64,000 nucleotides of DNA from Natronorubrum sediminis (lineage in GTDB: Archaea > Halobacteriota > Halobacteria > Halobacteriales > Natrialbaceae). Under the pieces are notes generated by a model. The model searched no databases. It was not told the origin of the DNA and was given only the letters and a program-made list of their open reading frames with translations. The position numbers and the translations under genes are program-made. Location: NCBI RefSeq assembly GCF_900108095.1, contig NZ_FNWL01000001.1:806001-870000 (forward strand). The letters run 5' to 3'. Shown piece by piece: positions 28,940 through 33,039 of this stretch. How positions within the stretch are numbered: position 1 is the stretch's first letter; every line of letters begins with the position of its first letter.

Positions 28940-29118
28940 ACGTGGGCCTAGGTGATGCGGGGTTGAATAATCGCCGGTCGATCACTATCGACTGACGCGA
29001 TGAACGAGTCGCCGATCGACGATCGGACTGATCACCCGTTAGCAGCCGGATTCGTCCGGCACGACCACGTCCCGCGTCCGCTGGACGCCCGTTCGTTCGC
29101 GACGATGGCGGAAGCCTT

Positions 29119-29146
29119 TTGTACATATGAGTACGTCGATGTACAA
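29119..29146. promoter_or_regulatory. inverted repeat with two TGTACA words before trpC
   Basis: ttgtacat (29119-29126) and atgtacaa (29139-29146) form a perfect 8-bp inverted repeat with a 12-base spacer, ending three bases before the trpC ATG. Each arm contains TGTACA, the TRP-box word bound by TrpY in Methanothermobacter. A standard TATA box is not evident, so the site probably overlaps the core promoter. Probable tryptophan operator (inference). Confidence 0.6.
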
Positions 29147-29148
29147 TA

Positions 29149-29985
29149 ATGAACTCCAAAACGGAGCTCGCTCCGGCGGTGGCGTCGATCCTCGAGGCCG
29201 CCAGAGAGCGCCCGGGTGGTGACGCCCCCGTCGACGTCGACGCGCGCTCGTTACCCGACGCGCTGGCGCGAGCGGAGGCGGACGGTCGCGTGCCAATAAT
29301 CGCGGAGGTAAAGCCGACGAGCCCGACAGCCGACGGGACGCGTTCGGACGACCCGGTCGAACTGGCCCGGGCGATGGTCGAGGGTGGCGCAGCGGCGATT
29401 TCCGTCCTCACCGAGCCGACGCACTTCGGTGGCTCATCCGAGTCACTGACGCGAGTCCGAGAGGCCGTTTCGGTCCCCGTGCTTCGCAAGGACTTCCTCG
29501 TCCGCGAGGACCAACTCGACGTCGTCGAAGCCGACCTCGCCTTGCTCATCGCACGCTTCGTCGGCGATCAGAAATCGAACGATTCGCGAGCGAGTCAGAA
29601 TACGTCGAGGTCTGACGCTGACCTCGAGGAACTCGTCGTCGCGGCTCGAGAGCGAGGGTTCCAGGCGCTCGTCGAGGTCCACGACCAGGAGGAACTCGAG
29701 GACGCGCTCGCAGCCGGGGCGAACATCATCGGGGTCAACAACCGCGATCTGGCGAAACTCGAGGTCGACCTCGAAACCTTCGAGTCCGTCGCGCCCCACG
29801 TCCCTGACGACGTAACGTTGATCGCCGAAAGTGGCGTCTCCTCGCCAGACGATGTTCGGCGAATGCGCGAGGCGGGTGCCGACGCCCTCCTGGTCGGCAG
29901 CGCCATCATGGACCACGGCGCGGGTGACAGTGACGTGACGGAGAACACCCGACGGCTGGTCACCGCGACGGAGGAAGACGAATGA
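29149..29985 (+). CDS. trpC: indole-3-glycerol phosphate synthase
   Basis: A 278-residue TIM-barrel enzyme that closes CdRP to indole-3-glycerol phosphate, the step before tryptophan synthase. Signature segments: [11 protein letters not shown] (catalytic Lys), [47 protein letters not shown] and [16 protein letters not shown]. An acidic/polar insertion (about residues 142-158) is haloarchaeal decoration. First gene of trpCBA; the remaining trp genes must be elsewhere. Confidence 0.95.
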
Positions 29986-30016: not shown

Positions 30017-31339
30017 ATGAGCACGAGCGACCACGACCACGAACGAAACCGAGAGCGCGACAGCGACGCCACCTTCGGCGACTACGGTGGCCAGTACGTC
30101 CCCGAGGCACTGATGCCGGCCGTCCAGGAACTCGAGGACGCCTACGAGCGCTACGTATTGAACAACGAAGACGGCTTCATGGATGAGTTCCGCGAGCGCA
30201 TGCGCGAGTTCGGCGGCCGGCCGACGCCGCTCCAGCGCGCGGATCGATTGAGCGAGCGCTACGACCGCGAGATCTACCTCAAACGCGAGGATCTCGTCCA
30301 CGGCGGCGCACACAAGCTGAACAACGCGCTCGGGCAGGTCCTGCTCGCGAAGTACATGGGCAAAGAGCGAATCGTCGCCGAGACCGGCGCGGGCCAACAC
30401 GGCACCGCGACGGCGATGGCCGCGGCCCACCTCGAGATGCCCTGTGAGATCTACATGGGTCGAACAGACGTCAACCGCCAGCGCCCGAACGTCTACCGGA
30501 TGCGGATGAACGGGGCCGAGGTCAACTCCGTCGAGGCCGGCAGCGGAACCCTAAAGGAGGCGATCAACGAGACGATGCGCGACTGGGCGACGACGGTCGA
30601 ACGAACCCACTACGTCATCGGATCGGTCGTCGGGCCCCACCCGTTCCCGAAACTGGTTCGTGACTTTCAGGCCGTTATCGGGCGAGAAACCCGCGAGCAG
30701 ATCCGCGAGCAGGCGGGTCGACTCCCCGACAGCGTCGTCGCCTGCGCCGGCGGCGGGTCGAACACGATGGGTGCGTTCCACGAGTTCGTGCCGGACTGCG
30801 CGGACCCACGGTTCGCGAATGAATCGAGCGGACGGAGTCCGCGAGACGAAGACGTGGGACTGTACGCAGTCGAGGCCGGCGGCTCGAGCCTCGAGATCGA
30901 CGCCGAGAACGCTGTCGCCCCGAACTCGGCGACGCTGTCGACGGGGACGAACGGCGTGCTTCACGGCGCGATGACGAAGCTGTTACAGAGCGAGGAGGGC
31001 CAGATCATGGAATCACACAGCGTGAGTGCCGGACTCGACTACGCGGGCGTCGGTCCCGAACTCTCGCACCTCGTCGACAGCGGACGGGTTACCCCCGTGA
31101 GCGTCGACGACGAGGCCGCACTCGAGGGCTTTCACCGACTGTCGCGACTCGAGGGGATCATCCCCGCACTCGAGTCGAGTCACGCGTTGGGCTATCTCGA
31201 AGAGGCGCACGAAGACCTCGGCGACCTCGTCGTCGTCAACGTCTCCGGCCGGGGCGACAAGGATCTGGAGACTGTGTTGGAGGAGACCGAAAAGCGTGAT
31301 CTTGAGGCAGCCCCCGACGTGGAGGTGTTCGACGGATGA
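30017..31339 (+). CDS. trpB: tryptophan synthase beta subunit
   Basis: A 440-residue PLP enzyme that joins indole and serine to tryptophan. The Schiff-base lysine is K100 in [12 protein letters not shown], the [12 protein letters not shown] and [13 protein letters not shown] motifs bind PLP and serine, and SGRGDKD ends the domain. It is about 40 residues longer than bacterial TrpB, because of acidic ends and a short insertion near residue 270. It overlaps trpA by four bases, which fits the alpha-beta complex. Confidence 0.96.
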
Positions 31340-32217
31340 GCGGCGATTCGACGGCGTCCGAGTACGACAGCGACGTCGAAGCCGCCATTCGAGAGAACCA
31401 CCCCGCCCTCATCACGTACATCACGGCGGGCGACCCGTCGCTCGAGGACACCAAAGCGTACGTCGAGGCCCTCGACCGCGGCGGTTCGGACCTGATCGAA
31501 CTGGGCCTTCCCTTCTCGGAACCGATCGCCGAGGGGCCGACGATTCAGGCTGCGATCAACCGCGCACTCGAGGCTGGAACGACGCCCGAGGGCTTTTTCG
31601 AACTGATCGACGACCTCGACACGGAGGCGCCGCTGCTGGTGATGACGTACTACAACATGATCCTGCAGTACGGGCCGTCTGCGGCCGTCCGGCCCTTCGT
31701 CGAGCGCGCCGCCGAGACCGGACTCTCGGGGATCATCGTTCCGGACCTCCCCGCCGAGGAAGCCGATCCCCTCCGCGAGGCCTGTGACGATCACGGCCTC
31801 GACCTCGTCTTCATCGTCGCGCCGACGACCGAAGGCGAACGCCTCGAGCGAATCATGTCGCAGGTGTCGGGCTTCGCTTACGTGCAGGCTCGCCTCGGGA
31901 CGACCGGCGCGCGCGCAGACGTCTCGAACGCGACCCACGACAGCCTCTCGCGACTCGACGACTACGACGTGCCCAAGGCCGTCGGCTTCGGCGTCAGCGA
32001 GGGCGACCACGCGGCCGAGATCATCGAAGCCGATGCCGACGGCGTCATCGTGGGCAGCGCGCTCGTCGACATCGTTGCCGAACACGGTTCGGCGGGTGCT
32101 GCCCCTGCGGCCGACGCTCTCGAGGCCAAAGCCCGGGAGCTCAAACGCGGCGCACTTCGGGGAGGCGAGACCCTCACGAACGATACGGAAGATACACCGG
32201 AACCAGAACAGCCATAA
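31336..32217 (+). CDS. trpA: tryptophan synthase alpha subunit
   Basis: A 293-residue TIM barrel that cleaves indole-3-glycerol phosphate to indole. The catalytic Glu is E55 in [19 protein letters not shown]; the second acid, usually Asp in SDPxADGP, is Glu62 here. Later blocks [23 protein letters not shown] and [14 protein letters not shown] are family-typical. The C-terminal 30 residues are an acidic tail. Overlap with trpB is ATGA. Confidence 0.95.
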
Positions 32218-32241: not shown

Positions 32242-33039
32242 ATGACTACCACAGGAATCGACGCCAGACTCGACAGAATCGGTACAGACGGCTCCTACGT
32301 GATCGTTCCGATGGATCACGGCACTACGATCGGTGCCGTACAGGGGCTCAAAGACATCGAATCGACGATCGACGGTGTCACCAGCGGCGGTGCGGACGCG
32401 GTCCTCACGCAGAAGGGCATCGCACCCCGCGTTCACGAACACAAAAACGACAAGGGTTACATCGTCCACCTCAATGGATCGACGGCGATCGGTCCCGACG
32501 AGAACGAGAAACGGTTGACCGGAACCGTCGAGGAAGCCGTTCGAGTCGGTGCTGACGCCGTCTCCTTTCATATCAACGTCGGATCGAATCACGAACCCGA
32601 CCAGATCACCCAACTCGCCGACGTAACCGAGCAGGCGACGCGCCTGGGCATGCCAGTGCTCGCGATGGCCTACGCGCGTGGCCCCGACATCGACTCCGCG
32701 GATCCCGACGCGCTCGGTCACGCCGTCCGGCTCGCGGAGGAACTCGGCGCGGATATCGTCAAAACGGGCTACAGCGGCGACGCAGATAGCTTCGAGCACG
32801 TCTGTGAGTCGACTCGACTCCCAGTCGTCATCGCCGGTGGCTCGAGAGGTACCGACCGACAGACCATCGAAATGGTACGCGGGGCGATGGACGCCGGTGG
32901 TGCTGGCGTCTCGATGGGTCGATCGATCTTCCAACACGAGAATCCTCAAGCGATCGCAAACGCCGTCTCCGGCGTCGTTCATCACGATCTCTCGACGGAC
33001 GACGCACTGGCGAAATCAGGACTGGCACTCGAGGCCTAA
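32242..33039 (+). CDS. 2-amino-3,7-dideoxy-D-threo-hept-6-ulosonate synthase
   Basis: A 265-residue class I aldolase (FbaB/DeoC-like) that makes ADH, the first compound of the archaeal shikimate route. The start GTDGSYVIVPMDHGTTIGAVQGL and the Schiff-base Lys in ADIVKTGYSGD (about residue 174) with VVIAGGSRGTDRQTIEMV are characteristic. Placement 24 nt after trpA and near DHQ synthase II (37.8 kb) and AroD (39.7 kb) supports the aromatic role rather than fructose-bisphosphate cleavage. Confidence 0.9.
   Translation: MTTTGIDARLDRIGTDGSYVIVPMDHGTTIGAVQGLKDIESTIDGVTSGGADAVLTQKGIAPRVHEHKNDKGYIVHLNGSTAIGPDENEKRLTGTVEEAVRVGADAVSFHINVGSNHEPDQITQLADVTEQATRLGMPVLAMAYARGPDIDSADPDALGHAVRLAEELGADIVKTGYSGDADSFEHVCESTRLPVVIAGGSRGTDRQTIEMVRGAMDAGGAGVSMGRSIFQHENPQAIANAVSGVVHHDLSTDDALAKSGLALEA

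Follow-up and report, generated by a model that had tools for sequence, protein, structure and literature searches.

The trpC promoter region of Natronorubrum sediminis

The window, i.e., the whole 64-kb stretch of N. sediminis DNA that was analyzed, carries an operon of three tryptophan biosynthesis genes and an aldolase gene, preceded by a compact block of promoter elements and short repeated words. Positions with a minus sign are counted from the trpC start codon, "family" refers to the Natrialbaceae, and "other families" refers to a set of 40 further haloarchaeal genomes described below. The features are as follows.

29103 to 29148, plus strand: conserved block of promoter and putative operator, -46 to -1 of trpC (49.2 bits with a matrix derived from the 40 other-family genomes)
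29109 to 29114, plus strand: BRE-like CGGAAG (family consensus CGCAAG; published haloarchaeal BRE, CGAAA)
29117 to 29120, plus strand: TATA box TTTT, which fits TTWT, -32 to -29 (TTWT plus at least two words, 89/90 in the family)
29119 to 29146, no strand: putative operator, inverted repeat TTGTACAT-N12-ATGTACAA plus the middle GTAC
29121 to 29124, no strand: word 1, GTAC, -28 (GTAC in the family, 86/90; G..C in the other families, 38/40)
29131 to 29134, no strand: word 2, GTAC, -18 (GTAC in 82 of 90; G..C in 35 of 40, most commonly GTCC)
29141 to 29144, no strand: word 3, GTAC, -8 (GTAC in 89 of 90; G..C in 38 of 40)
29149 to 29985, plus strand: trpC, indole-3-glycerol phosphate synthase (IGPS) (PF00218, 230 bits)
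30017 to 31339, plus strand: trpB, tryptophan synthase beta chain (PF00291; order next to trpA)
31336 to 32217, plus strand: trpA, tryptophan synthase alpha chain (PF00290, 287 bits)
32242 to 33039, plus strand: DeoC/LacD-family aldolase, same operon (PF01791; compare trpCBA-OE1472F of Halobacterium salinarum)

The aldolase probably catalyzes the first step of the archaeal aromatic pathway, and the gene order corresponds to the operon trpCBA-OE1472F of H. salinarum (PMC4162585; this and the other papers cited here are quoted from the parts available). Published haloarchaeal promoter motifs are a BRE (CGAAA), a TATA box (TTWT), and a -10 element (WW), and 72% of the transcripts of Haloferax volcanii are leaderless (PMC4983044, in part). 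From the BRE/TATA spacing, we infer that transcription of trpC starts at or next to the ATG. An earlier note on this DNA had seen no obvious TATA box, which is wrong, since TTTT stands directly before word 1 and runs straight into it. The same note had suggested an overlap of operator and core promoter, and this agrees with the layout found here, in which the array of words occupies the stretch between the TATA box and the start codon.

The inverted repeat reads TTGTACAT-ATGAGTACGTCG-ATGTACAA; its 8-bp arms (29119 to 29126 and 29139 to 29146) are fully complementary, as the earlier note had described, are separated by a 12-nt spacer, and end two bases before the ATG at 29149. Chance expectation for motifs in the window was determined with 40 dinucleotide shuffles. 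For perfect inverted repeats of 8 bp (loop length, 4 to 20 nt), the count in the window was 78, compared to a mean of 48.6 and a maximum of 86 in the shuffles. Since repeats of this kind abound in the window, the trpC repeat alone is not significant, and it was dropped as evidence by itself. A different result was obtained for the words. A third GTAC sits between the repeat arms, which places the first letters of the three words at 29121, 29131, and 29141, in exact 10-bp steps. The window contains one such triple and the 40 shuffles contain none, and a pair of TGTACA at a distance of 20 bp was equally absent from the shuffles (0/40). A search of the whole N. sediminis genome for TGTACA-N5-GTAC-N5-TGTACA, allowing up to 3 mismatches, returned a single perfect match, namely, the trpC site, along with four matches that had 3 mismatches. 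In a scan of 145,861 bases of the genome with an operator matrix, the trpC site scored 51.6, the next site 13.6, and a site at trpD (minus strand) 13.1. The simple dimer-type inverted repeat of the earlier note is thus better described as an array phased at 10 bp, with three words at trpC and, as detailed below, four at trpD.

Several matches to these words were noted elsewhere. (i) TGTACA, the TRP-box word of Methanothermobacter, occurs 8 times in the window (2.9 expected), and the six copies outside the trpC site are scattered. (ii) Contig C1 of genome G256 (family f6) contains six matches to GTAC-N6-GTAC-N6-GTAC at four places, one of them locus L108, with a common CAGTAC flavour; these matches are perhaps another regulon or a repeat. 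(iii) In genus g10, a second conserved triple, GTACATCTATGTACG..CCGTAC, is located away from trpC (G023 C1:3561943-3561966; G027 and G028 are alike). (iv) A pattern search for a regulon in three genomes gave mostly scattered sites among the matches listed, which covered genomes other than that of N. sediminis, and yielded no lead.

Conservation of the block in haloarchaea

To follow the block across haloarchaea, we used three sets of trpC upstream regions: (i) those from 90 of the 124 Natrialbaceae genomes with a trpC match, covering 29 genera; (ii) those from 40 genomes, one per genus, of nine other families of Halobacteria; and (iii) 78 named haloarchaeal loci, of which 77 were scored, since L365 gave no start and was therefore left out. 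The named loci, whose species overlap with those of the unnamed sets, cover Haloferax, Haloarcula, Halorubrum, Halobacterium, and a Haloquadratum metagenome-assembled genome (MAG). We found TTWT together with two or more words, at a fixed distance from trpC, in 89/90 family genomes, 37/40 genomes of other families, and 73/77 named loci; all three words plus TTWT were present in 84/90, 34/40, and 69/77, respectively. When the anchor was slid 39 to 50 bases upstream, none of the three sets gave a match. Among the genomes that failed, G011 has three words with TATTT instead of TTWT, G132 and G155 have three words with TAAT, and in G142, one of the 40 genomes of other families, the element is absent before trpC. 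As to the named loci that failed, the starts of L363, L368, and L371 were miscalled, and their arrays can be seen ahead of an ATG further upstream; the match of L366 begins at residue 28. Neither of the outcomes that the earlier note had named as evidence against its reading, i.e., loss of the repeat in close relatives that retain trp regulation and a mapped start site excluding the region, was found.

Conservation per column is approximately 0.1 bit upstream of -60 and rises between -40 and -1 to 1.0 to 1.3 bits in the other families and 1.7 to 1.8 bits in the Natrialbaceae. A matrix built without any Natrialbaceae sequence nevertheless retrieved 29103 to 29148 with 49.2 bits, and the next-best site on either strand of the window scored -0.5. 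Outside the Natrialbaceae, the words relax to G-N-N-C at all three positions, whereas G..C elsewhere between -62 and -4 never occurs in more than half of the 40 genomes. Because of this relaxation, the perfect palindrome is, as judged from these alignments, the Natrialbaceae version of a wider array. In our estimate, the array very probably has an operator function.

During the retrieval of trpC, TrpC matches that cross one TGA were observed in G127, G134, G140, G144, G175, G196, and G220 (genus g32) and in G164, G216, and G225; this TGA is probably the gene's own stop, past which the alignment has run.

Related arrays before trpD and in Methanosarcina

The genes trpD, trpF, trpE, and trpG are grouped on a contig other than that of trpC (trpD is on C2), with trpD as the first gene. 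The earlier note had proposed a comparison of trp upstream regions among relatives, and this comparison revealed a related array before trpD as well. We read the trpD upstream region in 50 of the 123 Natrialbaceae genomes with a trpD match. Most of them contain GTAC-N6-GNNC-N6-AGAC-N6-GTAC-ATTGGTG with constant inner spacing, and the distance of this array to the ATG shifts by about a base among the 50 genomes. With the anchor placed nine bases before the ATG, GTAC was found at -38 in 38, AGAC at -18 in 39, and GTAC at -8 in 38 of the 50 regions. When the conserved GTG serves as the anchor instead, the four words fall at -38, -28, -18, and -8, which is the same phase as at trpC; this GTG is probably the transcription start. 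The alternative of reading the GTG, nine bases before the ATG, as the trpD start codon was abandoned, since the spacing between the two codons differs from genus to genus.

The motif common to the two operons was also apparent in direct comparisons within the 46 genomes present in both sets. The best ungapped identity between the 20-bp trpC operator stretch and the trpD upstream region of the same genome was 12 to 17 of 20 positions; it reached at least 15/20 in 28 of the 46 genomes, compared to at most 14 in 920 shuffled regions. In most genomes, the trpD relative occupies the same position, with its orientation opposite to that at trpC (34/46). Additional trpD-like copies, 69 to 71% identical to N. 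sediminis TrpD, were noted in G027 (C3), G028 (C2), G070 (C27), and G078 (C3); both of the extra copies in G027 have an in-frame stop.

Two Methanosarcina trpC loci carry words shortly after a clear TATA box, namely, GTAC-N6-AGAC-N6-GTAC in L379 and GTAT-N6-AGAC-N6-GTAC in L378. Their AGAC-N6-GTACAT matches the haloarchaeal trpD array. A relationship between the Methanosarcina and haloarchaeal arrays is a lead provided by two closely related sequences.

A TrpY-family protein as candidate regulator

The TrpY homologue that the earlier note had proposed to look for is present. N. sediminis encodes a single TrpY-family protein (C1:1364360-1364848), which matches NF053754 (TrpY_fam; curated cut-off, 180 bits) with 240.3 bits. 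All 145 haloarchaeal genomes analyzed contain exactly one copy of TrpY_fam, and all 145 also contain TrpC. Phylum-wide, 119 of 120 genomes had a match, 116 of them over the cut-off, and Methanosarcina acetivorans has a TrpY_fam protein over the cut-off. The predicted model of the N. sediminis protein has a mean pLDDT of 89. Its residues 84 to 167 form a C-terminal ACT domain (Z scores of 10.8 and 9.5 against the ACT domains of PGDH and TyrR, respectively), for which the Pfam ACT profile gave 24.5 bits, slightly under its cut-off of 27 bits. The N-terminal part, where a TrpY protein would have its helix-turn-helix, is modelled with confidence (pLDDT of 92), and a fold search with this part in isolation returned nothing at an E value of ≤0.001.

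The trpY gene is far from trpC (C1:835149) and from trpD, and the 200 nt upstream of it contain no GTAC; autoregulation of trpY through the words was dropped because its promoter lacks the array. In 20 non-haloarchaeal Halobacteriota genomes, a search with five queries found no relative of trpA, trpB, trpC, trpD, or the aldolase gene within approximately 3 kb of trpY. Since the protein is nearly universal in the phylum and has none of these neighbors in the 20 genomes, TrpY may have a role broader than trp control.

An aromatic regulon in Methanothermobacter was reportedly predicted by Gelfand et al. in 2000. According to the available part of PMC6737238, the trp genes of Methanothermobacter thermautotrophicus are repressed by TrpY, which binds TRP boxes there; the homologue of Thermococcus kodakarensis does not control trp; and haloarchaeal homologues are already in print, as an unexamined branch of unassigned function. 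In H. salinarum, both trpCBA-OE1472F and trpD1FE1G1 are induced in the absence of aromatic amino acids (PMC4162585, in part).

Proposed mechanism and alternatives

We propose that the repeat is the operator of trpCBA and the aldolase gene, placed over the core promoter, for a repressor that responds to aromatic amino acids, most likely TrpY; in our estimate, this reading has an even chance of being correct. The three words would lie on one face of the helix between the TATA box and the start codon, where the array ends and where a leaderless mRNA would begin. With plentiful tryptophan or aromatic amino acids, sensed through the C-terminal ACT domain, TrpY molecules would bind the words side by side by means of their N-terminal part and shut out TBP/TFB or RNA polymerase. 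The related four-word array would place trpDFEG under the control of this protein as well. Binding of TrpY to the trpC and trpD words, taken as a separate claim, is about equally open to being right or wrong. Points that speak against the proposal are the near-universal presence of TrpY in the phylum, its lack of the queried trp neighbors, the promoter of trpY without the array, the T. kodakarensis homologue, the isolated N-terminal part without a significant fold match, the genome G142 without the element, and the trpCBA promoter of H. volcanii, for which loose regulation is cited (PMC13147458, in part). Of the TrpY-type idea in the earlier note, the conserved operator-like block over the core promoter and the encoded TrpY-family protein have held up, whereas the simple dimer repeat and the missing TATA box have not.

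A serious rival, although an unlikely one, is that a regulator of the Lrp/AsnC family similar to LrpA2 binds the operator in place of TrpY. Lrp oligomers sense amino acids and contact DNA at intervals of about one turn. The N. sediminis genome has ten Lrp/AsnC matches. At one locus (L265; C1, about 35.4 to 35.7 kb), an Lrp-family gene is divergent from an EamA-like transporter gene, and the promoter contains an exact triple of GTAC in 40-bp steps. The 10-bp array, however, is found in none of the ten promoters of Lrp genes, and the trpC words resemble the TRP box. When aromatic amino acids are lacking, LrpA2 of H. salinarum rises 14.9-fold, and it has been put forward as a regulator of their synthesis (PMC4162585, in part), but this rise may be an effect instead of a cause.

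That the block is instead an unusually strict core promoter of BRE, TATA, and initiator, perhaps for a particular TFB/TBP pair and with no operator, seems distinctly unlikely to us. It would fit the BRE- and TATA-like parts inside the block and the coincidence of its end with the start codon. Yet the haloarchaeal motifs in the available part of PMC4983044 comprise only BRE, TTWT, and the -10 WW; the other families retain G..C at -18 (35/40) and -8 (38/40); in addition, the half operator at trpD is turned around compared to the one at trpC, and a second comparable site is absent from the window and the N. sediminis genome. Binding of the words by an activator or another regulator is improbable. 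There is a precedent in Thermococcus, where the activator Tar controls the same genes, but Tar sites have the sequence TGGACA-N8-TGTCCA and lie upstream of the BRE (PMC6737238, in part), whereas the trpC array, downstream of the BRE and spanning the TATA box to the start codon, occupies a place suited to repression. Very improbable, finally, is a regulatory leader peptide encoded by the short upstream frame that begins with the ATG at 29127 and overlaps trpC out of frame. This ATG, at -22, occurs in 73/90 family genomes but in just 4/40 genomes of other families, where the words are retained, and the candidate was dropped because the ATG is not kept outside the Natrialbaceae.

Comparison with known systems

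The arrangement predicted here is closest to the TrpY/TRP-box circuit of M. thermautotrophicus, with which it shares TGTACA-type words over trp promoters and an ACT-domain TrpY-family protein. In M. thermautotrophicus, however, one promoter serves both trpY and the trp operon, and trpY is autoregulated through the boxes, whereas in N. sediminis trpY stands apart with a promoter devoid of words, the array has three or four words at 10-bp steps on two separate operons, and TrpY binding is predicted. In the bacterial TrpR operator, GTAC cores also lie over a trp promoter, but the protein family and the site layout are unrelated, so that this likeness is at most convergence. Tar (TK0271) of T. kodakarensis resembles the proposed haloarchaeal repressor in that it controls several aromatic amino acid operons via one shared palindromic site; it differs in being an activator (PMC6737238, in part), and the trpC words, with GTAC at 10-bp steps, do not fit its operator. 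LrpA2 of H. salinarum is likewise an amino-acid-linked regulator, with a transcript that responds strongly to aromatic amino acids (PMC4162585, in part), but is not known to have a site at trp, and its published link to these genes is a correlation in expression.

TRP-box-like control is already known from Methanothermobacter. Three things appear to be new, namely, the clade, the array with its 10-bp steps, and the employment of this array on two operons. In the literature searched, which left out most subscription papers, we found no description of such an array in haloarchaea, nor one of how their tryptophan synthesis is controlled, although the trp genes respond to aromatic amino acids. The occurrence of the array in nearly all haloarchaea examined, on two operons, and in Methanosarcina raises the possibility, which we advance tentatively, of an ancestral trp operator of the Halobacteriota, in which a TrpY-type ACT-domain repressor would bind G-N-N-C words in 10-bp steps along one face of the DNA from the TATA box to the start; this would be the function of the orphan haloarchaeal TrpY branch. 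If true, this uncharacterized branch gains a role. With a class-wide operator and a universal single-copy candidate regulator, the question is directly testable in Haloferax. The operator is also relevant to markers based on trp genes and to expression tools controlled by tryptophan.
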